From a virus, in the IMG/VR virus record IMGVR_UViG_3300031825_000077, positions 1 to 21,409 of that record: a stretch of DNA of 21,409 nucleotides. One strand, 5' to 3'. The translations under genes were made by a program, and so were the position numbers. Under the pieces are notes generated by a model, which did no database searches, was not told the DNA's origin, and saw only the letters and a program-made list of their open reading frames with translations. This document shows positions 1 to 21,409 of this stretch, in pieces; position 1 is the first letter of the stretch, and each line of letters starts with the position of its first letter.

Positions 1-11
1 AAAGAATACTT

Positions 12-719
12 TCACCTGTACACTGCCCCGTATCTACGGCAAGGGTTTTGCCCCTTGATGAGCTTAAGCAGCGTGGCATACGCAGTTTGATAAGTACGAT
101 CCTTTTCCAGTACCGCAGCGATATCAACCTCGTTTTTCACATCCTCCCAGGCGAACTTGAACCGACGCGAGCACATTTCCGTGAATGAGTAATTCTCTTC
201 GTCGTTATGAAAAGGCAGGGTATCCGAAGAAGCGGAAACCATGACGGAACCCTCGTAATCGTATGTCCACTGATCTCCGTTTTCAGAAGACGATGGAACT
301 TGAAAGAATCCAACCTTTTTAGTACTTGTCGGCTCCCAATAGAACCAAAGAGGATCGCCATATTGCGTGGCATAGTCGTAGTACGTAATTTGCAGACCTT
401 CAAGACCGCCTGCATATTCGTAAATCTGCCGATTATCCGCAGCTCTGTAGAAATGCGGATACCCGTAAAAGCGGGTGAAGTCCGCCGCCAGAGCATACGT
501 TCTCTGCTCAGTGACGAAGGTTACTGAGCCAGTAGTCTTTCTCTCGGAAGGGATAAGACGCTCGGCAATCAACTTCACGAGTTCATCCTGAATCGCCACT
601 ACAGCGAGATTCAGCGATGCGTTGTGCTGCGTATCCGACAGGGTCATGACTAAATCGGTATCCCCCCTGATAATGGCGTTCTTACGCAGAATTCTGTTGA
701 TTGCCTCGAGCAATGTCAT
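12..719 (-). CDS. Putative head-tail adaptor protein, 235 aa
   Basis: I do not recognise a named family by sequence alone. The position, two genes downstream of the major capsid gene in a phage head module, is where adaptor or connector proteins are usually encoded, and the length fits. The N-terminus is helical and polar (MTLLEAINRILRKN), the middle is rich in aromatic residues (FYGYPHFYRA, WFYWEP) and the C-terminal third is helical, which resembles gp6/adaptor-type proteins that dock on the portal. The ATG at 719 overlaps the stop of the upstream 97-aa gene by 4 nt, so the two are translationally coupled. The adaptor role is inference from position; coding status is well supported by length and tight packing. 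Confidence 0.7.
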   Translation of the reverse strand: MTLLEAINRILRKNAIIRGDTDLVMTLSDTQHNASLNLAVVAIQDELVKLIAERLIPSERKTTGSVTFVTEQRTYALAADFTRFYGYPHFYRAADNRQIYEYAGGLEGLQITYYDYATQYGDPLWFYWEPTSTKKVGFFQVPSSSENGDQWTYDYEGSVMVSASSDTLPFHNDEENYSFTEMCSRRFKFAWEDVKNEVDIAAVLEKDRTYQTAYATLLKLIKGQNPCRRYGAVYR

Positions 720-1009
720 ACCATCTCCACGGTCCCGAACTTAGCCCTTAGCGCATCCAGTAGAAGATGCTGCATACCCTGCCTGTTCTGCTGAGAGCCG
801 AGCATCGTCCCGGTTATGTTGGTCTTGAATGTGAAGCTATACTCGTTGCCGTCGATCCAGACGGATACGGAGATTTCGTTGCTTCTTTTTCGTGGGGCTT
901 TGGGTTGCTGCGGTAGCTTGATTTCAGTTGTGGAGACAGCCTCTTGAATATCAGTCTTGCGCCCCGCCTTTGCTTCGTACCGCAGCCTTGCCTTATCGAA
1001 CTCGGACAT
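716..1009 (-). CDS. Hypothetical phage protein, 97 aa
   Basis: Small basic protein. The N-terminal half (about residues 1-45) is charged and proline/lysine-rich, and the C-terminal half reads like a compact beta-rich domain (ISVSVWIDGNEYSFTFKT) followed by a short helix. I do not recognise the family. It lies between the capsid terminator and the adaptor-like gene and overlaps the latter by 4 nt. Because an intrinsic terminator (1021-1047) sits immediately upstream, expression of this gene and the next must depend on terminator read-through or on a promoter I could not identify. Confidence 0.65.
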   Translation of the reverse strand: MSEFDKARLRYEAKAGRKTDIQEAVSTTEIKLPQQPKAPRKRSNEISVSVWIDGNEYSFTFKTNITGTMLGSQQNRQGMQHLLLDALRAKFGTVEMV

Positions 1010-1020
1010 AAAGCCCCATG

Positions 1021-1047
1021 AAAAAGGGGCTGACCGAAGCCAGCCCC
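1021..1047 (-). terminator. Intrinsic terminator after the capsid gene
   Basis: On the minus strand a 7-bp GC-rich stem (GGGGCTG with CAGCCCC) extends by a G-U and a C-G pair to close a TTCG tetraloop and is followed directly by five T residues. It lies 16 bp downstream of the capsid stop codon. This is a classical rho-independent terminator. Partial termination here would let capsid protein be made in excess over downstream head-completion proteins. Confidence 0.85.
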
Positions 1048-1062
1048 AGGTTTAACTACAGA

Positions 1063-2151
1063 TCAGAGCTTGCTTGCGCCGCTGCGGATTTTCCCGATCC
1101 AGTTTCCGTTGAGAATCTCGCCGATCCACCACGATTTCCAAGCCAGCGAGCCGACTTCGTTGTACGGATCGGCCGCACCCGAAGAACCCGGCTTGTGGTA
1201 AATCACTTCCACCGCGGGCGGATTTTTCGGGTTGTACATCTCGTAGGCATTGGTCGCGTGCGTATTACCAAGCCCCACCGAGCCGACCGCTTCCTTGCCG
1301 TAGATATACGTGCTGTAAACGTCATTGAGGACGCTGGACGCACCACGCAGACCGGTCGCCGTGGTAGTACCTGCGGACGTAGAGACCGGGATAATCTCCG
1401 TCGAGCACCAGCGTACACCACCAGCAGCGCCGAACTCGAACGGCAGTGTCTCTGTATAGCCACCGTACGTCTCAACCGGAATGAACACGCCAGCACCAAG
1501 GCCGCGTATGTCCTCTTCCACGTCCACATGCGCGATGCCGTAGAAGCTAGAACGAACCGGGGAGGTGCCGATGTTGGTCGAACCATAGGCATCGCTGGTG
1601 AACTTCATGGCGCTATTGCGGTTGAGCTGGTTCACCATGTACTTAATGTCATTCAGCGTTATTGCCGACGTAACATTGGTATCTGCCGTCCCACCACCGA
1701 CAGCGCCGTTTGCATAGCGCACCTGCGTCGCGCCGCTGTAAATGGTCTCCATCAGCACGTTCAGCGATTCGCCCGCATTCGCTCCAAGCGTGTCCAGGAA
1801 CTTTGCGGCACGCATGTTCATCTGCAGGAGGTCGATTTCTTCAGACAGGGAGATTGCATTGCCCTTCTTCAGAATCGTCGCCGTAACCGTGCTAATGGTC
1901 GGAAGGACCGTACTACGGGTGGGGAAGGTCGTTGCGCCCGTCAACTCGCCGAGAGTATCGGTCGCAACCGCCAGATTGTCGATGCGCTCCCATTTAACGG
2001 CAGCCGTCGAGCCGTTCTTTTCGAGCGTCCCGGCCAGCGTGCCGTTATAGAAAGGAAGCTTCTTACGAGCCGCTGAAAGCAGGCCCTTCATCAACTGGAA
2101 GTTGACGCCAAGAGCGACGTTAGATGCAGTGCTAGAAACGAGGTAAGCCAT
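1063..2151 (-). CDS. Major capsid protein, N4-gp56 family, 362 aa
   Basis: Forms the icosahedral head shell. The protein starts MAYLVSSTASNVALG and ends with the family-typical tail: a VEVIYHKPGSSGAADPYNEV stretch, then a WKSWW segment and a final INGNWI-like segment (here ILNGNWIGKI). That C-terminal signature, the small-residue-rich mid region and the 360-residue length fit the N4-gp56 major capsid family. The ATG is preceded by AAGGA 9 nt upstream. Scaffold is directly upstream and a strong terminator lies directly downstream, the normal arrangement for a capsid gene expressed at high level. The long open frame on the opposite strand is a shadow. Confidence 0.93.
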   Translation of the reverse strand: MAYLVSSTASNVALGVNFQLMKGLLSAARKKLPFYNGTLAGTLEKNGSTAAVKWERIDNLAVATDTLGELTGATTFPTRSTVLPTISTVTATILKKGNAISLSEEIDLLQMNMRAAKFLDTLGANAGESLNVLMETIYSGATQVRYANGAVGGGTADTNVTSAITLNDIKYMVNQLNRNSAMKFTSDAYGSTNIGTSPVRSSFYGIAHVDVEEDIRGLGAGVFIPVETYGGYTETLPFEFGAAGGVRWCSTEIIPVSTSAGTTTATGLRGASSVLNDVYSTYIYGKEAVGSVGLGNTHATNAYEMYNPKNPPAVEVIYHKPGSSGAADPYNEVGSLAWKSWWIGEILNGNWIGKIRSGASKL

Positions 2152-2185
2152 TATTATTTTTCCTTATGAGGCTACCGCAAAACTT

Positions 2186-2875
2186 TTAGAGCGTGCCGCG
2201 TCCTATGTAGGATTGCCATTCCTTGTCGAAAGCCGCGCCGGTCTTACCCGCAAAGCGGTCTTCTTCTGGATTGGTCTGTTTTGTGGTGGCCGATGATTGT
2301 TGTGCTTGTTTTAGGGCCTTCTGATTCTCGGCAAGCTGCGGGTCTGCACGGACAGAAAACTTCTTCTGTAGCTGCTCGCCCATCGCCTTCGTCGCCGCAT
2401 TCCACGCCTTCGGGTTTTGATGGCGCTTTTGGTAGATCGCAGCAAACTTCGGGTCGGAACGAACCTGCTTCGCCAAAGCAAACTCGATCAAGTCCGCATC
2501 GGCTTCGGGTAGACCAACAACCTTATTGAGATCAGAGACCAGCGTTTTTACTTCTTCAGCTTCGCGCCGGTTGATTTCCGAGACCGCTAATTGCCGCTGG
2601 AAAGCCTCCATGCTCGCGAGCTTCTTCTGAATTTCTCCGGATTGCGCCGCTTGCCACGTCTTGAATCCGTTAGGGTCAAGAACGGGGTCAGGTACAGCAG
2701 GCAGGGTTTCCTGCGCCGTTTGTTGCGGCTGCTGCTGGGTCTGCTGCGGCTGGAACGACTGCGCCTCCGCTTCTACGTTGAACTCGCTGTAAACCTGCTC
2801 CAGCGTGTTTTCCGTCTGCGGGGCTTCGGTGCTAGCGGGTTGCTCAGTGCTAACCTGCTGCGCTTGCTCTGCCAT
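2186..2875 (-). CDS. Capsid scaffolding protein, 229 aa
   Basis: Predicted internal scaffold for procapsid assembly. The composition is that of phage scaffolds: the first about 65 residues are disordered and rich in Gln, Glu, Thr and Pro (QPQQTQQQPQQT), followed by a charged helical, probably coiled-coil, segment (about 75-135) and a basic C-terminal helix region (about 155-200). No catalytic motif is visible, so there is no evidence for a fused protease. It sits directly upstream of the capsid gene, as scaffolds do. Start ATG at 2875 has GGAG 5 nt upstream. A terminator lies between this gene and the preceding 67-aa gene. Confidence 0.85.
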   Translation of the reverse strand: MAEQAQQVSTEQPASTEAPQTENTLEQVYSEFNVEAEAQSFQPQQTQQQPQQTAQETLPAVPDPVLDPNGFKTWQAAQSGEIQKKLASMEAFQRQLAVSEINRREAEEVKTLVSDLNKVVGLPEADADLIEFALAKQVRSDPKFAAIYQKRHQNPKAWNAATKAMGEQLQKKFSVRADPQLAENQKALKQAQQSSATTKQTNPEEDRFAGKTGAAFDKEWQSYIGRGTL

Positions 2876-2887
2876 GTGAACTCCAAT

Positions 2888-2909
2888 AAAAAAGGCCCCG
2901 AAGGGCCTT
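2888..2909 (-). terminator. Intrinsic terminator with TTCG loop
   Basis: Minus strand: 7-bp stem (AAGGCCC with GGGCCTT) closing a TTCG tetraloop, then a run of T. It follows the 67-aa gene by about 15 bp and precedes the scaffold start by only 12 bp. Scaffold and capsid need read-through from upstream or a promoter hidden in the upstream coding sequence. Confidence 0.85.
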
Positions 2910-2924
2910 GTGGTTGAGACTGTG

Positions 2925-3128
2925 TTACTTACCGGTTAGCAACTTAAAGAGAAGGTCGAAACCATCCTGCCTACCGGATTGATACTTAAGTTCTTCGATA
3001 ACAGCGTTGTTTGCTTCCATTGAACCAGCAGGGCGGTAAGCTGGAACCACGGGACGGCTTTTGTGCATTGCGTCCATGATTTCCTGAAACTCTCGCGTTT
3101 CCCGCAACTGCTTTAACAGTTCTTTCAA
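2925..3128 (-). CDS. Hypothetical protein downstream of portal, 67 aa
   Basis: Small charged protein (MKELLKQLRETREFQEIM...). The N-terminal 25 residues are predicted helical, and the middle contains VVPAYRPAGSMEANNAVIEE. Phages with this head module often carry a similarly sized unknown gene between portal and scaffold, but I cannot name it. The apparent start is TTG at 3128, which overlaps the portal stop in a TTGA junction, implying coupled translation. A terminator follows at once. Confidence 0.65.
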   Translation of the reverse strand: MKELLKQLRETREFQEIMDAMHKSRPVVPAYRPAGSMEANNAVIEELKYQSGRQDGFDLLFKLLTGK

Positions 3129-5155
3129 GCGGTCTCCTTGCTAGCAGCGGCTTCCTGCATCGCCTGTTCCGGTATCTGTTGGGCTTCAATGAGTGTCTTA
3201 ACGGTCTGCGCTTCGATAAGGTCAATCTCGGCTGCCGCTTTCTTTGCAGCTAAGACTTGCTCGCGATTCTGACCTGCCATGTCAGATTGCATCTCTACCG
3301 AACTCTTACGGGCGTCTACTTGCAACTCCGCAACCGCAAGCTTCTCCTTGGATTGCAACTCTGCGGCGGCGATCTTCTCTCTCGACTGAATCTCAGCGGC
3401 CTTCACCTGAGCACCTGATTTAAGCTGCTGGTTCTCGGTCTGTAGCTGTTGCATCGCCTGCTGCATCTGCTGCATTTGCTGTTGGACCTCAGGCGGTATC
3501 TGCGGGCCTTCGTCCACCTGAACGTACTGTTCTGGATTCTTAAGACCCGCATCGCGGTAGGTCTGGAGCATGATCTCCGTCGTTTTGAGCTTCGGCGCGA
3601 ACAGCGGACTTCCGGAGAAAAACGCAGTAGCCGATCCCACTCGCTGAGTCCTCTGTTCTTCACCCAAAAGACCGCGAGAGCCGACGACATCGAAGTGCGC
3701 GTTAGCCTGAATGTCGCTGTTCTTCGCCCGGATGAAGTCTGGCGTAGACATTTCGGAGTTGTAGAACGTGTACTCCGTCATGTTCTTCCGATTAAGCTCG
3801 TGCTGCATGTATAGCCAAGGTCTTAAACCGCCATCCTCCAACATGCCTACAAACCCAACCGTGCGAACCTCTGCCCCTTGTTGTGTCTTGTTAACCTCAG
3901 TAGCTGTCTGCCGATCGGAGTTCACAACCCCGGTACGCAGAGAAGAAACGCCGGTTCCCTCCTGCATCTGGCGCAGGCCCATTTGCAGCCCTTCCAGCGC
4001 CCAACGAGGATCGCCTATATCCAGAGCCTGCATACCCTTGCCCATGCTCTTGGTCGGCGTCTTGGCTCCAGGAGAAAGGTCGGGACCATCGTTCATCACG
4101 TAATCCGGGTCATTACCGTCATACTCAATCGGCGGCTCTACCTTAAGATTCACAGCGTCCACGAAGCGATTAGCGATAATCGTCGTGATCTTCTGCATCG
4201 GGGACTGCTTAATGATAGGCGACGTATAGTATGGGTCTCGAATGTCCTGCCTCTCATAGCCTCCGTATATTATGGAAGGGTAAGGAAGCTCATTCGCCGC
4301 CATGAAAACAATGACGCCGTTCGCAAGAATCGCAAACGAATTCGGGAAATACATATCCCCGTCGTCTCGATCTATGTTCAGGTCGCCGTACCACTTCGTC
4401 AGCTTTACGTCTTTGGTCTGAACCTCCCCGTTTTTATGTTCTTCGTCGGGGATCTTGGAAAGGCGGTTAGACATCCATCCGTCACCCTTCGCAATCCTTT
4501 TCAACTTCCACAGCGGCATGTACTCGTTGATAAGCATCGACCCCGTGTAAAACAGGTTCGTGCCGATCACCGAAGGGGAGGGATCGGGGTAGGCATTCCA
4601 CATCGAAACTGGTTGCCATACCGGGGCAGAGACTTGCTTAAGCTTCTGCCCGTCATACACCATCATCTCTTTAGCAAACTTCGCTTCTGCCACAAACCCG
4701 CCGTGGTGCAGGGCTTCTTTAACCGAAAGTCTAAAGCGCCCCTTAAATCCGAAGTCCTTATGTTGCTGCACCATGAGAGAGCGTAAGAGACCATCTGCAA
4801 TCCGCTGCTTCTGCTCGGGCACTCTGTTCTGCCCAACATCCTTATTCAGCTCAACGTGAGGCTCAAACCAGTTTTCATCCGGGAACGTAATACGCATTAC
4901 GTCGTCGGTGATGATCTCCGAGGCCTTTGATAGCTCACCTAGCTCAAAGGCAGACTGCCACGCGGCCTCAACGGACATTCCCGGCATGACTTTCTGCAGC
5001 GGGTTCATGGCGATTTGGCGGTCGACCTCTTTCCACTTGGATTCGTGGTTTTTGCGGAATTGCGATTTCTCGCGGGTGGAAAGCTCGTCGTTGATGTACG
5101 TCTCGAGCTTCTTCCAGTCCGCAGAAACGATCCGCCTGTTTTTAGGTTCAGCCAA
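3125..5155 (-). CDS. Portal protein, 676 aa
   Basis: Ring-forming protein at the unique vertex through which DNA is packaged and ejected. Support: position directly after the large terminase (2-bp gap) and before scaffold and capsid, size (about 75 kDa, typical of podovirus-type portals), and an N-terminal region with an early helical segment and a tryptophan/aromatic-rich middle (WQPVSMWNAYPDPSPS). From about residue 555 to the end the protein is a long Gln/Glu/Ala-rich coiled coil, starting at PPEVQQQMQQMQQAM, which fits the helical barrel extension of large portals. The apparent start is TTG at 5155; no in-frame ATG occurs until about residue 49, so a non-ATG start is likely. Confidence 0.9.
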   Translation of the reverse strand: MAEPKNRRIVSADWKKLETYINDELSTREKSQFRKNHESKWKEVDRQIAMNPLQKVMPGMSVEAAWQSAFELGELSKASEIITDDVMRITFPDENWFEPHVELNKDVGQNRVPEQKQRIADGLLRSLMVQQHKDFGFKGRFRLSVKEALHHGGFVAEAKFAKEMMVYDGQKLKQVSAPVWQPVSMWNAYPDPSPSVIGTNLFYTGSMLINEYMPLWKLKRIAKGDGWMSNRLSKIPDEEHKNGEVQTKDVKLTKWYGDLNIDRDDGDMYFPNSFAILANGVIVFMAANELPYPSIIYGGYERQDIRDPYYTSPIIKQSPMQKITTIIANRFVDAVNLKVEPPIEYDGNDPDYVMNDGPDLSPGAKTPTKSMGKGMQALDIGDPRWALEGLQMGLRQMQEGTGVSSLRTGVVNSDRQTATEVNKTQQGAEVRTVGFVGMLEDGGLRPWLYMQHELNRKNMTEYTFYNSEMSTPDFIRAKNSDIQANAHFDVVGSRGLLGEEQRTQRVGSATAFFSGSPLFAPKLKTTEIMLQTYRDAGLKNPEQYVQVDEGPQIPPEVQQQMQQMQQAMQQLQTENQQLKSGAQVKAAEIQSREKIAAAELQSKEKLAVAELQVDARKSSVEMQSDMAGQNREQVLAAKKAAAEIDLIEAQTVKTLIEAQQIPEQAMQEAAASKETA

Positions 5156-5157
5156 AT

Positions 5158-6603
5158 TTAGCCCCAGTTCGTAGCGCCTCTAGCAGCGTGGCGTTTTGGT
5201 CTTTTTATTGTTTCGGTGCGTGCGTGCCGAAGCATCATGAAGGCGTAGCGAGAAGCAGAAAGCACGTCATCGCGCAGCTTTACGATCTTTCCTTTCTTGT
5301 CGCGGTGATACATGCGCTTCTCTTCCAGCCAAACCCGGCATGTCTTAAACACCTTCCATTTTCCGGTTTCCATGCGCTCCACCATTTCCATGATCGGAGC
5401 CTCAACGGAATTCCCGCCTTCCCCCTCTTGTTTTCCCATCGGCGGGGGGTTTGTAGCTTTGGCAGGAAGCAGGTTTAGCTTCTCTTTCTTATACGAGTTA
5501 ATCAGCGCCTCACCAGTGCCCTTTTCGGAATTCAAGCCATCATGGGGCCACGCCACAGGCACCCATTCCCCCCAACCCCTAACGACAGAGGAGTGAACGG
5601 CTGGGAGCGCCTTCGATTCGCGGTAATCTGCAATGACATAGACCGTGTCGGTATCTCTATCCCAAGCGAGTTTTGCTGCGCCGAAAGGATGGTCCCACCC
5701 GAAGTCGATCCCGCTAATTTGCGGCCAATGCCTCGGAATCGGAAATGGCTCAACCTCGATCTGTTCATCTGGTGTGGCGAAAATGACGCCAGCCCCCATA
5801 AGCGGGACGCCCTTAGACCGCATCTCTCGTTCATGCGCCGGAACAGACGCAAGCTTTTCTGCTCGCACTTCAGGTGTCATATGCGGGGCGTCGTCCCAAG
5901 TCGCAGTTATTACGGCCTGCCCCGGCTTCAAGTCGTTCAGGAACGCTACAACAACCTCCGTCATCCCCTCCTCCGGTGTGAACGTAAGGATGATGGTCGT
6001 ATCCTTCTTGGCGAAGGTCGCGCGAACAACTTGAGACCAAATATCTAACGGGGGTTCTTCATCCAGCCATACGCCATCACGAGCGCGGCCCATGAACTTC
6101 TTGAAACCCTGCTCATAGGCTTTAAATTGAAGCTTCGACCAGCCGCCAGATACGTGCTTAACCAGTACTGTATCTATGGCATTAGGAACACCGGGCTTAT
6201 TGGTCTTCTTCCCGATGCAGTCAACGGGAATCGAGCCGCTACCAAATAAAGCAGGGTTCTCCGGGTCTCCCAGAAGTTCCGCCTGCATAATGTCACGCGT
6301 CGTATCGTTCGTGTTCGACGCGGCCATCCAATCGACCGGACGGAAGAACCTCTTACCCTTCCAATCCTTCGGATACTGCCCCGTAAGGTGCATCGCAACT
6401 TCCATCGCGGCGCACATCGTCTTTCCGATCTTGTTTGCAGCGATAATTGCCCGCTGCGCTGCCAGCCTACCCGGGGTTAGATGCCCCTCTGCGTAATGAA
6501 ATTTCTCCTGGTAGGGATACGGCTTGTAATAGTCGAGTTTGTGAAACGTCCGCCGCCTCTCCATCAATAGGACTAGGCGGGCTAATTCCTCTTGGGGATT
6601 CAA
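5158..6603 (-). CDS. terL: Terminase large subunit, 481 aa
   Basis: ATP-driven DNA packaging motor with headful or site-specific nuclease. The ATPase domain has Walker A AANKIGKT (residues 55-62) and Walker B with catalytic Glu in VWLDEEPP (about 178-185). The C-terminal RNase-H-like nuclease has its first acidic motif in GIDFGWDHP (about 298-306) and a late acidic DDVLSASRY near residue 445, matching the expected metal-binding aspartates. Length is normal. The start TTG at 6603 has TGGAGA a few nt upstream; the next in-frame Met is residue 14, just before the conserved PYQEKFH, so the exact start is uncertain. The portal gene follows after 2 bp. Unusually, the small-subunit candidate is 4.3 kb upstream. 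Confidence 0.95.
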   Translation of the reverse strand: MNPQEELARLVLLMERRRTFHKLDYYKPYPYQEKFHYAEGHLTPGRLAAQRAIIAANKIGKTMCAAMEVAMHLTGQYPKDWKGKRFFRPVDWMAASNTNDTTRDIMQAELLGDPENPALFGSGSIPVDCIGKKTNKPGVPNAIDTVLVKHVSGGWSKLQFKAYEQGFKKFMGRARDGVWLDEEPPLDIWSQVVRATFAKKDTTIILTFTPEEGMTEVVVAFLNDLKPGQAVITATWDDAPHMTPEVRAEKLASVPAHEREMRSKGVPLMGAGVIFATPDEQIEVEPFPIPRHWPQISGIDFGWDHPFGAAKLAWDRDTDTVYVIADYRESKALPAVHSSVVRGWGEWVPVAWPHDGLNSEKGTGEALINSYKKEKLNLLPAKATNPPPMGKQEGEGGNSVEAPIMEMVERMETGKWKVFKTCRVWLEEKRMYHRDKKGKIVKLRDDVLSASRYAFMMLRHARTETIKRPKRHAARGATNWG

Positions 6604-6736
6604 TTTTCTCCAGGTCTAAAATTACGGGGCGTAACATGGGGTCAAGGTCGGGAAACATCACAATCAAGGCGTAGAGCTTCCCTATTGCATCCTGCAGCGG
6701 TGTCCTTTCAGCTTTCCGTGCATCGTGAGCGGGCAA
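6467..6736 (-). CDS. Possible small protein overlapping terL, 89 aa
   Basis: A frame starting TTG at 6736 with a good GGGGGA ribosome site 6 nt upstream. It overlaps the methyltransferase end by 55 nt and the start of terL by 137 nt. The first half reads like a protein (LQDAIGKLYALIVMFPDLDP, then RPVILDLEKIE), filling the otherwise empty 78 bp between the methyltransferase and terL. The second half lies inside terL and looks like out-of-frame translation. It may be a genuine coupling peptide, a decayed gene or a false positive. Confidence 0.35.
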   Translation of the reverse strand: MPAHDARKAERTPLQDAIGKLYALIVMFPDLDPMLRPVILDLEKIESPRGISPPSPIDGEAADVSQTRLLQAVSLPGEISLRRGASNPG

Positions 6737-7215
6737 ATCAGTTCCCCCTTAGCTTCTCCACGGTTGTCGCAGATGATCGTTTTCGCTTTGACCTTGTAAG
6801 TCTCTAGCGGGTAGTGCCAGCCCCACGACAAAAGAGAGATAACGAGGTCCGCCTCTATGTCCTGAGTGCCGATGTCGTACCAGCGATCTACAGTCACGCC
6901 GTTAGATTTCAAAAACTCCGTGGCCACTTCACGAGAACTAAACGGCTTCATCTCCGACTCAAACCCGCCCCGCCAGTCCTCTTTAGGACCGTCACCGTCC
7001 AGTAGATATAACTTCGCCTCGGGATATTTCTGCTTTAAGAGAATGTCTATCCCGGCCATGCCGCAGCCGATGTCCAGTATCGAATCCACAGACTCCGGTA
7101 GATATGGTTCGATCTGCTCGAAATCCGACTTCAGGCTTTCTATGTACTCTTCAGCAGTTTTCGTGTGAGTGCGGTGTAAGAACACCCACTCAAGAACCTC
7201 GGGCGATAGCTTCAA
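6682..7215 (-). CDS. Class I SAM-dependent methyltransferase, 177 aa
   Basis: Small Rossmann-fold methyltransferase. Motif I is ILDIGCGMAGID (residues 46-57) and the acidic end of strand 2 is LYLLDGDG (about 69-76), which bind S-adenosylmethionine; WYDIGTQDIEADLVISL carries the motif II/IV region. No DPPY or NPPY motif is present, so a DNA N6-adenine target is not indicated. It is the last enzyme of the glycan-type cassette, overlapping the upstream glycosyltransferase by 26 nt, so methylation of a sugar or lipid carrier is a reasonable inference. Start TTG at 7215 is needed to keep the N-terminus; no ATG precedes motif I. Confidence 0.85.
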   Translation of the reverse strand: MKLSPEVLEWVFLHRTHTKTAEEYIESLKSDFEQIEPYLPESVDSILDIGCGMAGIDILLKQKYPEAKLYLLDGDGPKEDWRGGFESEMKPFSSREVATEFLKSNGVTVDRWYDIGTQDIEADLVISLLSWGWHYPLETYKVKAKTIICDNRGEAKGELICPLTMHGKLKGHRCRMQ

Positions 7216-7840
7216 GAATGATGTCCGCGTGCTGTTGTTGGATATGCGACGTGTCGGATAAAAGCTTCATCGCCTTCCCCCCGGCTCCGCCCACCCTAGC
7301 TCTTTGGTAAGTCTCGTCGGACTCAGACTTCCCATACTTGAAGTGCAAATGCTCTACTTCCACGTCTTTAACCTGGATCAGCCGGCCGCACTTTTTGGCA
7401 ACCTCAGAAACCCAGCCATCAGGCCCGAAGTGAGCAAAAATGTCAGGCCATGGACCGATAAGCTTTACCCACTTCATCGACATAACGAAGTGATTGCAAT
7501 TCTGCTTCGCGTGGTCCGTGCCGTAGACGATCGCTAAATCATCCTTCGGCATCGCGTTTAGGAGCTTTTCGTCCCAGTCCTGAGTCCGAAACTCGATGTC
7601 GTCCGACCCGATCATGAAGTAGGGCGTCTCGACCTTGGCAATCATGGACAGGAGAGCTTTAGAACTCCCCACCGAAGGTCCTATCGTGACCCCTTCGTAT
7701 TCATCCCTCTTCGGATCGTCCTCGTCTACATAGGCCATCAGGTGAAACGGATTGCGAGCGGTCCGTAGAGCGGAATCAACGGCATTCCTAAACCGCTTCG
7801 GCCGTCCTCTTGTCGCAATGAGTAGCGATAGCCTCAACAA
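7190..7840 (-). CDS. GT-A fold (family 2-like) glycosyltransferase, 216 aa
   Basis: N-terminus LSLLIATRGRP is the nucleotide-binding opening strand of family 2-like glycosyltransferases. VDEDDP (38-43) and GSDDIEF (78-84) supply the acidic residues for nucleotide-sugar and metal binding; the second is the DXD-equivalent. The C-terminal GPDGWVSEVAKKCG and EVEHLHFKYGK segments resemble the acceptor-binding helix and the late histidine region of such enzymes. At 216 residues it is short, as phage versions often are, with no membrane anchor. The apparent start is TTG at 7840, followed by a second TTG, with GGAG just upstream. It overlaps both neighbours, indicating a compact co-translated cassette. 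Confidence 0.85.
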   Translation of the reverse strand: MLRLSLLIATRGRPKRFRNAVDSALRTARNPFHLMAYVDEDDPKRDEYEGVTIGPSVGSSKALLSMIAKVETPYFMIGSDDIEFRTQDWDEKLLNAMPKDDLAIVYGTDHAKQNCNHFVMSMKWVKLIGPWPDIFAHFGPDGWVSEVAKKCGRLIQVKDVEVEHLHFKYGKSESDETYQRARVGGAGGKAMKLLSDTSHIQQQHADIILEAIARGS

Positions 7841-8540
7841 CCATCTCCGGAGTTATGCGCTCCAACGCCTGTCTACAGTGAAGGCATGGTGTTATGGAGC
7901 CGCAGAAATAAGACGCTTTGCACAGGTTGGTATGCGAGTCGTAGCCCAAGGTGTTAGGCCCCACCAACCCGCCCCAGACCACGACAGCGGGTTTCCCTAA
8001 AGCCGCCGCCGCGTGGTGCATACCGCCATCAGTGCCTACAAATAAAAAAGCCCTCGCTAGGAGGGCACAGGCGTCGCGGAATGACCGCGTTTCAAGCTGT
8101 CGGACGTTTCTTAATCGCCGTCCTTTACCTTGAATCCACCTAATCTCTGGTAAAGCATCGACAACCTTTTGCCAGTTGTCGAAGCCCCAATCCTTGTTTC
8201 CACCGAACGAGCCTTTGGTGTTTGGCTCGATGTAAACGAAATCAGACTCAGACCATCGAAGCTCACCTGGAGAAAAGTAAATCTCTCCGGGTTCAGCCTT
8301 AAACGGCTTCCACGCCATCCGTTCTTTAGTGGTCTTGGAATAGTCGATATACGGTCTGTTACCTTTGACCGCCTTGACCCACACACCGTCAGGAATGATC
8401 TTTTTCGAGATGCGCGGATTGTTCTCGAAAACCTCTGACCATTTAATCTCTGCCCCGTCTCCGACCATCACCCGCTTTCCAGTTACCGTATTGGCCTTGC
8501 GGGCAAGAGCGGTAACGAGGATCTCGTCACCGAAACCCAA
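7788..8540 (-). CDS. GT-B fold (family 9/heptosyltransferase-like) glycosyltransferase, 250 aa
   Basis: The protein begins directly with the conserved GFGDEIL motif (family 9 enzymes usually have GxGDxxL after a short strand) and carries the C-terminal GTDGGMHHAAAALGKP motif (about 169-184), the nucleotide-sugar site of heptosyltransferase-like enzymes, followed by VVVWGG. YIEPNTKGSFGGNKDW fits the central inter-domain loop. Length is about 100 residues short of bacterial heptosyltransferases but matches compact phage relatives. An in-frame stop lies 9 nt upstream of the TTG at 8540, so the TTG (with CGGAG 9 nt before it) is effectively forced if the GFGDE motif is translated. Confidence 0.88.
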   Translation of the reverse strand: MGFGDEILVTALARKANTVTGKRVMVGDGAEIKWSEVFENNPRISKKIIPDGVWVKAVKGNRPYIDYSKTTKERMAWKPFKAEPGEIYFSPGELRWSESDFVYIEPNTKGSFGGNKDWGFDNWQKVVDALPEIRWIQGKGRRLRNVRQLETRSFRDACALLARAFLFVGTDGGMHHAAAALGKPAVVVWGGLVGPNTLGYDSHTNLCKASYFCGSITPCLHCRQALERITPEMVVEAIATHCDKRTAEAV

Positions 8541-9096
8541 CGACGCTTACTCCGTATTTTTCTTCGATTAGCGGAAGCATCTTGTTTTCGGCTTTCCAGT
8601 CATGCCCCGTTGTCCACTTACCCTTATTCGCTTTGTAATAATCCAGCTTGTCGGGGTCCAGGAGGTTATCGAAGCCGACCAGCCTGATTTCTTCGGCCTT
8701 CAAAAACTCGCAGGCACACAGAATTGCAAACATCCCGAGGGAGAAGTTTCTAACCTCCTCCCGCCCGAGCGTCTTGAAAATCGCATTCCAGCGGAGAAAT
8801 AAATCAAGCGGGATTATTAATTGAGCTTTTGCCCGATTTCTAAAATTAGCATCAGTTGTCGGATTCCATGCTCCCTTCTTTGGCTGCCCGAAGTACTGCT
8901 TCGGCACTTTCTTGTAATCAAGCATCACCGGCAGCGTTTCCGTCGAGCTGCACATGTAATCGACTCGGGTGCCGTAATCCTCTTTGTTCTGCCAGCTCGG
9001 GTCTTTGAGCCTTATGACGATGGTTTCGTCTATCCTCGGACCCCAGCCCTTACCTAGCGGGCTTTGACCGTGCCCAATGACTGATACTGTCTCCAA
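8527..9096 (-). CDS. Sialyltransferase-like (GT29/GT42 style) glycosyltransferase, about 189 aa
   Basis: The N-terminal motif VSVIGHGQSPLGKGWGPRID resembles the CMP-sugar-binding opening of GT29/GT42-like proteins (VxGNGPSL...), and a downstream FSLGMFAILCACEF / IRLVGFDNL pair resembles the second sialyl motif, where a Ser-Gly helix is followed by a strand ending in GFD. These similarities are from memory of the family, so the donor sugar is uncertain. I chose TTG at 9096, with GAGGG 10 nt upstream, because it places the motif at residue 5 and shortens the overlap with the preceding gene; GTG at 9126 would add 10 residues. The 3' end overlaps the next gene by 14 nt. Confidence 0.7.
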   Translation of the reverse strand: METVSVIGHGQSPLGKGWGPRIDETIVIRLKDPSWQNKEDYGTRVDYMCSSTETLPVMLDYKKVPKQYFGQPKKGAWNPTTDANFRNRAKAQLIIPLDLFLRWNAIFKTLGREEVRNFSLGMFAILCACEFLKAEEIRLVGFDNLLDPDKLDYYKANKGKWTTGHDWKAENKMLPLIEEKYGVSVVGFR

Positions 9097-10097
9097 CTGT
9101 CGAATACCCTCACCGAGCCGTACCACGACGTTTTACCCGGGGTCGCCCTGCAGACCCACTTCCACGGCAGGATTGAACGTCGATCCGGCAATGCCGTCAT
9201 CGGGTCCGCAATAATCACGTCCACAGGGACTCCAAGAGCGCCCGCAAAGTGCGCGACAGAGGTCGAGACGGTAACGACCTTAGAGAGATTCGACAGCAGC
9301 CCTAAAACGCCTTCTATGTCGTTTCTGAGGTCGAGTCCTGCGGGTGCGTTGTGCTCCTCATCCCATTCAGGATCGTATTGCAGGCTGATTCCATCCGACA
9401 AAGCGCGTCGTATAAGCGGTTCACAGCCTTGAGCTCCTCGCCAAGAGACTCCGATATGGCCTCTAAAACCTGCAAATCGCTTAATTTGCTCATCACTCGC
9501 TTTCAAAAACGGCATACCGGGAAAATGCTTCAGCGAACGCCTAAAGTTCCTCGCTAAATCCCCTATCGGCCACCACGCCTCCGCGCCTTCCGGGACTCCC
9601 TGGACCTTCCTTTTACTGCCTTCGATTTCTGCGGGTCTCGTTTCGACTCCGAAGGAGCGCTCGAAGATGGTTTGCAGTCTCGGGTCACATTCGACAATGA
9701 CCGAATCAACCAATCTCTGAACGTCTGGAATGCACGACGCAAAGAAAACTTCATCCCCTATCCCCTGATCGCCAATGATCCAAAGCTTTTTAACCCGAGA
9801 CCCATTCCAACGAGGAATCGGAAACGGATTACTGTCTTTCCAGTGCCACAAGCCTAAGTGATAATCCGACTGAAACTCCCAACCAGACCAGTCCGAATAA
9901 TCACCCAAGTAAAAACGGGCCTGACAACGCGCCCAGCGTGCGTTAGGCGGCTCGTCAGGGACTAGATGCAACTCACCCCTACGATATGCCTTCTCAAGCT
10001 TCCTGATCGCGTTCTGGCGCTTTAGAGGGCTGGCACCAGTGGCTTTCTCAAGGACCAAGCGGATGGAGCGGAAATCAATCTCTCGGGCTAGCTGCAA
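9054..10097 (-). CDS. Family 9-like glycosyltransferase with N-terminal extension, 347 aa
   Basis: Two parts are visible. Residues about 1-80 form a helical region (VLEKATGASPLKRQNAIRK, then a RARFYLGDY-like segment), similar to a repeat preceding the catalytic part in TPR-type glycosyltransferases. The catalytic part begins at WIIGDQGIGDEVFFASCIPD (about 106-125), the family 9 GxGDE motif, and includes IGVSWRG and VTVSTSVAHFAGALGVPVDV (about 273-292), the nucleotide-sugar motif. It is probably the first enzyme of the cassette. Start TTG at 10097 has GGGAG 8 nt upstream and overlaps the end of the 56-aa gene. Confidence 0.85.
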   Translation of the reverse strand: MQLAREIDFRSIRLVLEKATGASPLKRQNAIRKLEKAYRRGELHLVPDEPPNARWARCQARFYLGDYSDWSGWEFQSDYHLGLWHWKDSNPFPIPRWNGSRVKKLWIIGDQGIGDEVFFASCIPDVQRLVDSVIVECDPRLQTIFERSFGVETRPAEIEGSKRKVQGVPEGAEAWWPIGDLARNFRRSLKHFPGMPFLKASDEQIKRFAGFRGHIGVSWRGAQGCEPLIRRALSDGISLQYDPEWDEEHNAPAGLDLRNDIEGVLGLLSNLSKVVTVSTSVAHFAGALGVPVDVIIADPMTALPDRRSILPWKWVCRATPGKTSWYGSVRVFDSWRQYQSLGTVKAR

Positions 10098-10258
10098 CGA
10101 TCAAACTCCCACGACTTGCGCCAGAAAAACACACGAAAGTACAAACCACGCGGCAACACCCAAGAACTCCACCGAAACTCAAGATTGAATATCGGGCCGC
10201 GCTCGTTAAACGCGAAGGCAAAGAGCGTTCGGCTAACCCTTATGTACGACTCGCCCAC
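10088..10258 (-). CDS. Small aromatic/basic hypothetical protein, 56 aa
   Basis: Read directly from the sequence: GTG at 10258, stop TAG at 10088-10090. The product is unusually rich in Phe, Trp and Arg (NLEFRWSSWVLPRG, then YFRVFFWRKSWEF), with alternating hydrophobic and charged residues as in a small beta-sheet protein. An in-frame stop lies 4 codons upstream of the GTG, and GAGGA precedes it by 6-7 nt, so the start is well defined. It overlaps the end of the 144-aa gene by 26 nt and the start of the glycosyltransferase by 10 nt, filling an otherwise empty gap. I do not recognise the family. Confidence 0.65.
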   Translation of the reverse strand: MGESYIRVSRTLFAFAFNERGPIFNLEFRWSSWVLPRGLYFRVFFWRKSWEFDRCS

Positions 10259-10667
10259 GCCGCTTCCTCATGTAGTCCCGCATGTAGGCGTTGTATGCTT
10301 CTCTGCTGCGCCTGTTTAGCGTGCGGGAAATTGAAGCTGAATCTTTTTCACCGGAAACCGCTCGCCCACCTTTTGGCACAGCTTTATGAACTCGCGCTCC
10401 CGATAATTCGGCCTGCCGATTTTCAGCACAACCTCTGGGTTGTCGCGCTTCAGGATTTTCCCGCGAAAGACTCGCCGCGTTGCCGTGATTACTTTCGTCG
10501 GACTTACATACTTCGTGGCCCGACGTGCATTCTGGGCCAGCAGCGTTTCTATTACCTTCTCGATCATTATTAATCGCCTCCGTGTTAATCGCAGATTTGT
10601 TAATCGCACGAAACCTTTCGCACCGCATGCGAGGGTCATGCTTGTTACCGCAAGCGCGACATTTCAT
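10233..10667 (-). CDS. Small zinc-ribbon-like phage protein with basic C-terminal tail, 144 aa
   Basis: The N-terminus MKCRACGNKHDPRMRC holds a CxxC...C knuckle, and the C-terminus ends NAYMRDYMRKRRGRV. This combination (MKC.C..., short AIN/VNT-type repeats, then YMRxYMRxRR) is familiar to me from small hypothetical proteins of betaproteobacterial phages, usually shorter. The repeat part here is AINKSAINTEAIN. Between the two recognisable ends lie about 85 low-complexity residues that coincide with a second gene in another frame (10316-10567), so this linker may be long because a gene lies within it. There is no strong ribosome site before the ATG at 10667. Confidence 0.6.
   Translation of the reverse strand: MKCRACGNKHDPRMRCERFRAINKSAINTEAINNDREGNRNAAGPECTSGHEVCKSDESNHGNAASLSRENPEARQPRGCAENRQAELSGARVHKAVPKGGRAVSGEKDSASISRTLNRRSREAYNAYMRDYMRKRRGRVVHKG
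10316..10567 (-). CDS. Conserved-looking phage protein nested in another frame, 83 aa
   Basis: Reads MIEKVIETLLAQNARRATKY..., then VVLKIGRPNYREREFIKLCQ and FPVKKIQLQFP. The GRPNYREREFIK...PFPVKK pattern is one I know from short hypothetical proteins in phages and prophages. The ATG at 10567 has a perfect GGAGG 9 nt upstream. The whole gene lies inside the 144-aa gene, which is read in another frame on the same strand. Both frames have protein-like features, so this seems a genuine nested gene rather than a shadow. Longer in-frame starts up to 10639 exist but lack such a ribosome site. Confidence 0.7.
   Translation of the reverse strand: MIEKVIETLLAQNARRATKYVSPTKVITATRRVFRGKILKRDNPEVVLKIGRPNYREREFIKLCQKVGERFPVKKIQLQFPAR
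10570..10607 (-). repeat. Three direct repeats of 8 bp at 15-bp period
   Basis: Plus-strand TTAATCGC occurs at 10570-10577, 10585-10592 and 10600-10607, exactly 15 bp apart. In the 144-aa protein these encode the five-residue repeat AINxx three times. The block lies immediately upstream of the nested 83-aa gene; the copy next to it flanks its GGAGG ribosome site. Confidence 0.75.
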
Positions 10668-10905: not shown

Positions 10906-11256
10906 TCATGCGGCCTTGATGCCTGGAGCGTCCTTAGCTCGATCCGCCAGGAGCTTAGTCAGCAGATCGGGGAATGCGTCTATAAGCTGTTGAAACTTGG
11001 CCATAATCTGCTCTTCCGTGAGCTTGTCGTCGGGATTGATGGTCGTTTGCTCGACGGCGGACAAGGACGGGCGCAGCTTATCGTAGATTGCGCGTAGAGC
11101 TGTTACTTGGGTCGCGCTTAATTCGACTTTCCCAAAGCCATGATCAGCAAGCCTGTTCTCTACCTGACTCAGCCGTATCTTCTCTTTGGTCTCCGGGTCG
11201 TGATTACGTTTATGCCGCACTCCGTTCAAGCCCGTTTTGCCCGTTATTCTTGCCAT
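10906..11256 (-). CDS. Terminase small-subunit-like protein, 116 aa
   Basis: Predicted DNA-recognition component of packaging. The central segment VENRLADHGFGKVELSATQV followed by TALRAIYDKLRPSLSAVEQT matches the style of a small-terminase group common in proteobacterial phages, where VSQLVNRLENHALGxVEMSxTQ... precedes LLxKTIPDLSAVE. The N-terminus is basic (ITGKTGLNGVRHKRNHDPET) as expected for DNA binding, and the C-terminus is acidic and helical. The assignment is by remembered resemblance, so moderate. It is separated from terL by about 4.3 kb of glycan-type genes. Start ATG at 11256 lies within the end of the GIY-YIG gene (47-nt overlap). Confidence 0.65.
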   Translation of the reverse strand: MARITGKTGLNGVRHKRNHDPETKEKIRLSQVENRLADHGFGKVELSATQVTALRAIYDKLRPSLSAVEQTTINPDDKLTEEQIMAKFQQLIDAFPDLLTKLLADRAKDAPGIKAA

Positions 11257-20739: not shown

Positions 20740-21409
20740 ATGGAGAAGAATGGGAAAGCCGATGTGCTCATGGCATATAAAGGATTTGATGCCGAGTTCA
20801 AATGCCGCGACTTCCAATTTGAGGTTGGCAAGACGTATGAGCATGACGGCCCCGTTTCCATCTGCTCGTCAGGCTTCCATGCATGCGAAATGCCGTTTGA
20901 CGTGTGGTACTACTACGCTCCGCATTCCTCGCAGTTTGCCAGCGTGACTCTCAGAGATGTGAGCAAAGAGACGAGCGACGACAGCAAGCGCGTTGCAAAG
21001 AAGATCACGGTAGAGGAGAAGCTCTCGCTGTTCGGCTTCATCCGAGCGCAAGTGAAGTGGACGAGCGAGCTCGCCGAGAAAGAGGCTGCCACCACGGGCT
21101 ACGAGGCCCACGCTGCCACCACGGGCTACGAGGCCCACGCTGCCACCGCGGGCTACGAGGCCCACGCTGCCACCGCGGGCGACAGGGCCCACGCTGCCAC
21201 CACGGGCTACGAGGCCCACGCTGCCACCGCGGGCTACGAGGCCCACGCTGCCACCGCGGGCGACTGGGCCAACGCTGCCACCGCGGGCTACGAGGCCCAC
21301 GCTGCCACCGCGGGCGACAGGGCCCACGCTGCCACCGCGGGCGACAGGGCCCACGCTGCCACCGCGGGCGACAGGGCCCACGCTGCCACCACGGGCTACG
21401 AGGCCCACG
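20740..21409 (+). CDS. DUF7666-type protein with 9-residue repeats (3' end outside window)
   Basis: MEKNGKADVLMAYKGFDAEF, then KCRDFQFEVGKTYEHDGPVS and ICSSGFHACEMP make up the N-terminal domain known from phage DUF7666 proteins (Y-KGF...C..F.FEVGKTY...GFHAC). Helical residues up to 115 lead to a tandem array of a 9-residue unit (consensus AATAGYEAH) from residue 116 to the window edge. Function of the family is unknown to me. ATG at 20740 has AAGGAG 6 nt upstream; a start at residue 11 is less supported. It is the first gene of the PL-like operon. The long frame on the other strand across the repeats is a shadow. Confidence 0.88.
   Translation, partial: MEKNGKADVLMAYKGFDAEFKCRDFQFEVGKTYEHDGPVSICSSGFHACEMPFDVWYYYAPHSSQFASVTLRDVSKETSDDSKRVAKKITVEEKLSLFGFIRAQVKWTSELAEKEAATTGYEAHAATTGYEAHAATAGYEAHAATAGDRAHAATTGYEAHAATAGYEAHAATAGDWANAATAGYEAHAATAGDRAHAATAGDRAHAATAGDRAHAATTGYEAH
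21085..21408 (+). repeat. Tandem array: 12 copies of a 27-bp unit
   Basis: Twelve in-frame 27-bp units encode A-A-T-[TA]-G-[YD]-[ERW]-A-[HN]. Variation is confined to positions 4, 6, 7 and 9: position 6/7 is YE, DR or DW, position 9 is H in all but one unit (N). The array continues past the window edge. Units are almost identical in DNA, which suggests recent expansion or gene conversion. Confidence 0.92.

Follow-up and report, generated by a model that had tools for sequence, protein, structure and literature searches.

A glycosyltransferase island between the terminase genes

The window analysed here is the full 21,409-base IMG/VR record IMGVR_UViG_3300031825_000077, from a phage of an uncultivated podovirus-type clade. 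Our subject is an island of predicted glycan-modification genes that lies in this window between the genes for the small (terS) and large (terL) terminase. Genes were assigned by Pfam and PHROG profile matches, AlphaFold models, structure comparison and motifs. On the minus strand, which carries all features described for the window below unless stated otherwise, the order is terS-like, four glycosyltransferase (GT) genes (GT9a, GT29, GT9b and GT2), methyltransferase, terL, portal, scaffold-like and major capsid. The five island genes are overlapping same-strand open reading frames (ORFs) at 6682-10097, between terS (11256-10906) and terL (6603-5158). An earlier note on this DNA had described four GT-type proteins (two GT9-like, one GT2-like and one sialyltransferase-like) and a methyltransferase, a description that folds and family matches now back, and a split of terS from terL, which amounts to 4.3 kb (10906 to 6603). 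The span it gave, 6682-10258, starts correctly, but ends 161 bp beyond the last island ORF, inside an ORF at 10667-10233.

GT9a (9054..10097) is predicted from model, fold and motif to consist of N-terminal helices (residues 1-90) followed by a GT-B domain of the GT9/TibC fold. Its AlphaFold model, built from a 12-sequence alignment, has a pLDDT of 89.9. Residues of about 100-347 match the GT9 enzymes 3tov, WaaC, WaaF and TibC at VIA Z 13.8-12.3 with 215-225 residues aligned (3tov 13.8, root mean square deviation (rmsd) 3.8, 225 aligned; WaaC 13.6; WaaF 12.6; TibC 12.3), and the next unrelated GT-B entries start at Z 8.2. Chloroplast NDH-PSI subunits reach Z 12.0-10.9 as well, so the fold by itself does not give a function. 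The catalytic-type motif G[IVL]GDE is present in all 12 aligned homologues. GT9a matched no Pfam family at E<=1, PF01075 included, and its alignment profile matched no PDB chain by sequence.

The 199-aa GT29 protein (8527..9126) is likewise assigned by model, fold and motifs. Its model (pLDDT 83.6, 6-sequence alignment) has a sialyltransferase fold, and the top 24 structural matches, from Z 13.0 to 10.1, are all sialyltransferases or closely similar entries. The best of these is 2p2v (Z 13.0, rmsd 3.6, 177 aligned; 177-180 across the top matches); Cst-I and CstII score Z 13.0 and a mammalian sialyltransferase Z 12.3. The catalytic-type motifs H[DE]W..E and GHG.S occur in 6/6 homologues, and we take the former to correspond to the His-x4-Glu sialylmotif VS of GT29/GT42 sialyltransferases. 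GT29 had no match in Pfam or PHROG and, with its alignment profile, no sequence match in PDB. Because these sequence searches were empty for both proteins, the GT9a and GT29 assignments rest on fold and motif. Direct relatives of GT29 were found neither among annotated phages nor by a single-protein scan, and an alignment scan returned only the contig of one relative, L002. A 254-aa ORF sits between GT9a and GT29 in L002.

The remaining three genes have family matches of differing strength. GT9b (7788..8540) matches the GT9 family PF01075 at E 2.9e-8 (33.8 bits, curated cut-off 22). The GT2-like protein (7190..7840) matches phrog_14945 strongly (E 6.7e-29) and PF00535 weakly (E 0.003). The predicted class I S-adenosylmethionine (SAM) methyltransferase (6682..7215) has an LDIGCG motif and weak family matches only (PF05175 E 0.006), and is 82% identical in L002.

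L002 carries the same block between terS and terL. Relative to L002, the ratio of nonsynonymous to synonymous substitution rates (dN/dS) is 0.154 for GT9a, 0.092 for GT9b, 0.046 for GT2 and 0.133 for the methyltransferase; for GT29 it is saturated in this comparison and 0.157 relative to a further relative, L012. Four of the five island genes are thus under purifying selection, and the dN/dS values rule out chance ORFs. The ORF overlaps are partly due to a generous choice of starts: the GT29 homologue of L002 begins ~10 codons later, and the listed GT29 start probably lies some 10 codons upstream of the true one. Promoter-like and terminator-like sites in the island show no excess over shuffled sequence, which is consistent with co-transcription of the island and no proof of it.

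The upstream border of the island is the 116-aa terS-like small terminase gene (10906..11256). Since the protein has no match of its own in Pfam or PHROG, its name rests on position and relatives; it occupies the same position in L002 and MW202713, with 53% and 35% identity, respectively. At the downstream border, terL (5158..6603) matches PF03237 (E 7.9e-26) and PF17289 (E 3.6e-19). Beyond it lie genes for the portal or head-tail connector (3125..5155; phrog_332 E 4e-20, phrog_1216 E 5e-12), a scaffold-like protein (2875-2186) and the major capsid protein (1063..2151; phrog_1357 E 2.9e-37). Serine and threonine make up 18.8% of the major capsid protein, which is one candidate substrate.

The island recurs throughout a phage clade

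A terL alignment scan of viral contigs returned 456 loci, and the best 80 were scored with local profiles. Forty of these 80 terL contigs form the clade, marked by a portal or island match. Where 2 kb or more of sequence lies upstream of terL, one or more GT genes occur there in 31/31 clade contigs and in 0/28 such contigs among the other 40, a contrast that is somewhat circular given that the island itself partly sets clade membership, although most members are also covered by the portal marker on its own. With 500 bp upstream the same contrast is 34/38 within the clade against 0/38 outside. In the clade members with no GT match (L121, L128, L135, L139, L140 and L164), the contig extends 2-1592 bp upstream of terL; two of them, L135 and L140, still have a sugar aminotransferase.

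GT9a is present in 26/31 clade contigs, and the remaining five end before that point. The terS-terL gap measures 5.1-7.6 kb in the 11 clade contigs in which both ends were found; in the window it is 4.3 kb. Scanning viral contigs with a GT9a alignment yielded 16 loci, and in G001, the contig of L002, the cassette profiles match nothing outside the terS-terL interval. The earlier image of a cassette wedged between the terminase genes is therefore misleading, as clade members carry the island as a matter of course. An assembly artefact is ruled out by the same order in many independent contigs, and a selfish insertion between terS and terL by the fixed position across the clade.

Among annotated phages, MW202713.1 is the sole full-length match to the portal. 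Rhizobium phage RHph_Y25 was considered as an island-free sister; its terL is related (48%) and it lacks the island, but its capsid protein differs and it was dropped as a capsid control. The cassette DNA had no match in plasmids. In a search for the host, the window capsid protein had 8 weak matches in 399 genomes of one order (with a Burkholderiales metagenome-assembled genome as centre) and 3 matches in 385 genomes of one class (with Reyranella as centre). The best of these 3 is 42% identical; its 18-kb contig (G504:C66) also has a portal-like ORF but gave no match to terL or the island. Our literature search, which covered mostly non-subscription journals and no preprints, found no description of GT genes between terS and terL or of TPR-GT9 proteins (see below) by a phage capsid gene.

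Exchangeable genes follow a constant GT9a

GT9a is the constant part of the island, being its first gene wherever a contig reaches so far. The genes behind it vary among the 40 clade contigs: GT8-type a and DegT occur in 14 each, GT29, a GT-A type and GT8-type b in 11 each, GMD in 8, GT9b in 5 and radical SAM in 4, and there are also several methyltransferases and GT2 types. L012, whose capsid protein is 86% identical to that of the window, has GT9a, GT29 and GT9b in common with it, while other genes replace GT2 and the methyltransferase. The later island genes are thus exchangeable in a fixed slot.

Some of these genes bear on the supply of sugars. The L018 island encodes a GDP-mannose dehydratase (PF16363 E 4e-104), a nucleotidylyltransferase and a DegT protein (E 1e-48), which by family matches would be a perosamine-type set. 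The earlier view that sugar donors come from the host fits the window phage but not the group, in which DegT aminotransferases, GDP-mannose dehydratase and nucleotidylyltransferase occupy the same slot. In 4/40 contigs a Ser/Thr-rich (18-25%), virion-like protein of 200 aa with no clear family match is encoded within the island or at its end (L018 16371-16973, L134 6637-7239, L140 755-1351 and L122 2956-3546) and is another candidate substrate. In L014 a 2OG-Fe(II) oxygenase gene (PF13640 E 9e-11) lies directly ahead of GT9a. Some islands also contain a radical SAM/SPASM protein (L019 3534-4565 and L110 3979-4995; PF04055 E 3e-16).

Longer relatives of GT9a adjoin capsid and, in some bacteria, flagellin genes

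By sequence, GT9a is a short member of a TPR-GT9 family. It is about 28% identical to the longer TPR-GT9 in MW202512.1; its helices span residues 2-89, where Pfam gave no TPR match, and its group B relative L004 has TPR matches. A scan of viral contigs with four TPR-GT9 proteins gave at least 539 confirmed relatives, of which the best 80 loci were analysed. The TPR-GT9 ORF was recovered by profile in 77 of the 80; the other three, all with a capsid gene upstream, were lost at contig ends.

Where at least 1.5 kb of sequence lies upstream of TPR-GT9, a major capsid gene is found upstream in 59/60 loci and within 1.5 kb in 58/60. The exceptions are L218, which has no capsid gene, and L259, where a split gene lies at 2.2 kb. 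Two capsid families are involved, phrog_334 and phrog_1328, and a methyltransferase follows TPR-GT9 in 45/75 loci. In the phrog_334 type, a protein of ~140 aa is usually encoded between capsid and TPR-GT9, with a mean Ser+Thr content of 22.6% (n=45), compared with 15.9% for the capsid proteins and 9.2% for TPR-GT9 itself. Ser/Thr richness is common among virion proteins, so this is only a hint of a substrate. In one locus, L024, the capsid gene (6196-8147, with matches at 6196-6987 and 7797-8147) is broken by an HNH endonuclease ORF (7107-7712), which suggests an intron or intein-like element.

A genome scan for bacterial relatives gave 368 confirmed loci; the 77 that we analysed all show about 26-35% identity, and none of them has a terL. 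A flagellin ORF lies near TPR-GT9 in 5/77 (L038, L046, L050, L063 and L101), mostly as the next neighbour, compared with a roughly estimated chance expectation of about 1/77. Among annotated phages (50,697 records), the L004 TPR-GT9 matched one at E<=1e-10, its own record.

Proposed role in glycosylation of the phage particle

We propose, with a probability of roughly 0.6, that the island encodes a cytosolic O-glycosylation machine for virion proteins, whose five genes, expressed late, would assemble a short glycan in the host cytosol on one of the proteins that make up the phage particle itself. The committed step would fall to GT9a, acting as a soluble protein O-glycosyltransferase that joins the initial sugar to Ser/Thr of a head (or fibre) protein; GT29, GT9b and GT2 would extend the chain, and the methyltransferase would cap it. 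Donors would be host nucleotide sugars for the window phage, while some relatives may bring their own synthesis genes. Possible benefits are escape from recognition by host or rivals, particle stability or changed adsorption. Late co-expression, the protein acceptor, the order of action, the identity of substrate and sugar, and the benefit are all steps that we infer; for the protein acceptor, the reason is that three independent kinds of neighbourhood (packaging operon, capsid gene and flagellin gene) point the same way. The earlier preference for virion modification gains support from the lineage-wide island, the capsid-linked TPR-GT9 and the flagellin-linked bacterial relatives, with the target a candidate. 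In agreement with its prediction that none of the five proteins has a membrane anchor, their maximum 19-residue hydropathy is 1.53; across the clade, 10 of 151 cassette ORFs lie between 1.6 and 1.9 and none above 1.9, so by hydropathy the island proteins are soluble.

Several observations weigh against this proposal. WaaC and WaaF, both of which act on the lipopolysaccharide core without an anchor, match the GT9a fold as well as TibC does, and Pfam detects no TPR in GT9a. In the window clade the capsid gene is not a neighbour of the island, and none of the virion proteins is clearly marked as the substrate; in the phrog_1328 type, the protein encoded between capsid and TPR-GT9 is not Ser/Thr-rich (11.4%, n=11). 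The 58/60 count is inflated by shared descent, since it comes from sequence relatives of the four query loci, one of them included (L257 is the contig of L023). Integrase is present in 9/14 genomes, which makes lysogenic roles possible, and the virion glycan is a prediction from genes.

The strongest alternative, which we nevertheless consider unlikely, is that the enzymes alter host lipopolysaccharide (core or O-chain) during infection and so keep progeny from re-adsorbing or rival phages from entering. Enzymes of the lipopolysaccharide core share the GT9 fold and need no membrane anchor, GT9a matches WaaC (Z 13.6) and WaaF (12.6), GT9b is a true GT9, and the perosamine-type genes of relatives point to sugars typical of O-antigen; pelagimyophage GTs are so read by their authors (PMC7029224). 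However, the island lies inside the packaging operon throughout the clade and the TPR-GT9 family is tied to capsid genes, a GtrA-type flippase is absent in 14/14 records, and a surface change only late in infection would be of little help to the same cell. That flippase result (PF04138 0/14 records, control positive 7/14) also speaks against lysogenic conversion, in which the island would be expressed from the prophage and change the lysogen surface as gtr clusters do. Many of the phages appear temperate, given the integrase in 9/14, and the close relative G001 has both integrase and repressor; the island, though, shows no excess of promoter-like sites and belongs to the terS-terL operon of the late strand, a position that argues against expression in the lysogen, and hydropathy reveals no Wzx- or GtrB-like membrane partner. 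We regard this reading as very improbable.

Hardly more probable is that the bases of the phage DNA are the target, modified as a protection from restriction. Phage glycosyltransferases together with methyltransferases can serve DNA hypermodification. An example is given in PMC12838424. GT9a relatives, however, are not known as DNA enzymes, and PF00303 (the thymidylate synthase / hydroxymethylase family) is absent in 14/14 records with a control positive in 9/14, so that modified DNA, one of the targets suggested in the earlier note, loses ground. A search for Tet/JBP dioxygenases gave 0/4, with the control silent too.

Comparison with known glycosylation systems

Virion glycosylation by phage-encoded GTs is described in mycobacteriophages, where capsid and tail-tube proteins are glycosylated (PMC12363180), with Che8, Corndog and Myrna as cases (Freeman et al. 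2023, as cited in PMC12363180 and PMC12691614). The targets reported there are capsid and tail proteins, as would be the case for our proposal. The present phages and the gene position are others, several GTs and a methyltransferase stand in one block, and the evidence here is genomic; enzymes, lineage and location all look different from those of mycobacteriophage virion glycosylation.

For GT9a, the closest parallel in architecture is FlmG of Caulobacter, a soluble TPR and GT-B enzyme described as both required and sufficient for the cytoplasmic O-glycosylation of flagellin (PMC7591256). The TPR-GT9 family would share with it a soluble, cytosolic TPR and GT-B build, and some of the bacterial relatives found here adjoin flagellin genes. 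In contrast to FlmG, the N-terminal helices of GT9a are short and have no TPR match, and the acceptor would be a virion protein. TibC, an ADP-heptose-binding heptosyltransferase according to PDB titles, offers a second parallel as a protein heptosyltransferase: the GT9a model has the GT9/TibC-like GT-B fold (Z 12.3, 222 residues, 10% identity), a comparison by fold only, in which WaaC and WaaF fit equally well.

Pelagimyophages also carry clusters of GT genes, some of them GT8, but these are described in a host-recognition region by tail fibres and read as modifying the O-chain (PMC7029224), unlike the terS-terL position here. Clade-specific sugar pathways, in a lineage with swappable sugar-synthesis genes proposed for capsid fibrils, are reported in giant viruses (PMC10117803); these infect eukaryotic hosts, and we claim no common descent.

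More broadly, and with odds that we place somewhat short of even, sugar-coated capsids may be widespread among uncultivated podovirus-type phages and change fast. FlmG-like TPR-GT9 enzymes of a phage branch would initiate O-glycans on proteins of the capsid or its decoration, and modules exchanged in a fixed slot (terS-terL or directly behind the capsid gene), some with perosamine-type sugars made by the phage, would write clade-specific glycans, like bacterial serotype loci. If the proposed role is correct, glycosylation of virion proteins would be a lineage-defining phage trait beyond a handful of cultured examples, served by an enzyme family of its own and by a genome slot that is fixed in place and exchangeable in content, and there would be a testable claim on what many unexplained phage GTs do. 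It would also mark a blind spot in cultured phage biology, because the L004 TPR-GT9 and the portal are near-unmatched in annotated records whereas viral contigs hold at least 539 relatives.

Further observations on the window and its relatives

The window terL is 64% identical to that of L002 (9238-10698), compared with 94% for the portal, 92% for the capsid and 97% for GT2, a sign of mosaic exchange of terL. A short ORF at 6736-6467 (minus strand) spans the region from the methyltransferase to the start of terL; it has 70.7% identity and a dN/dS of 0.33 relative to L002, and part of the ORF overlaps terL in another frame, so that it may hold a genuine small gene of some 50-60 codons.

In G001, positions 1-10373 recur in diverged form at 43309-53682, and the first 100 bases are refound at 43309, so that the contig appears to be a circular genome of about 43.3 kb whose closure runs through a second strain. 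A Methyltransf_23 gene in G001 (172-1017, plus strand; PF13489 E 9e-9) adjoins a tail-fibre gene (2320-1472) whose product is Ser/Thr-rich (28.7%), and modification of the fibre by this neighbour is thinkable. Comparable early regions of the window (21085-21409) and L008 (15211-15525) hold tandem arrays that differ in their units, 27 bases (12 copies) and 18/54 bases, respectively.

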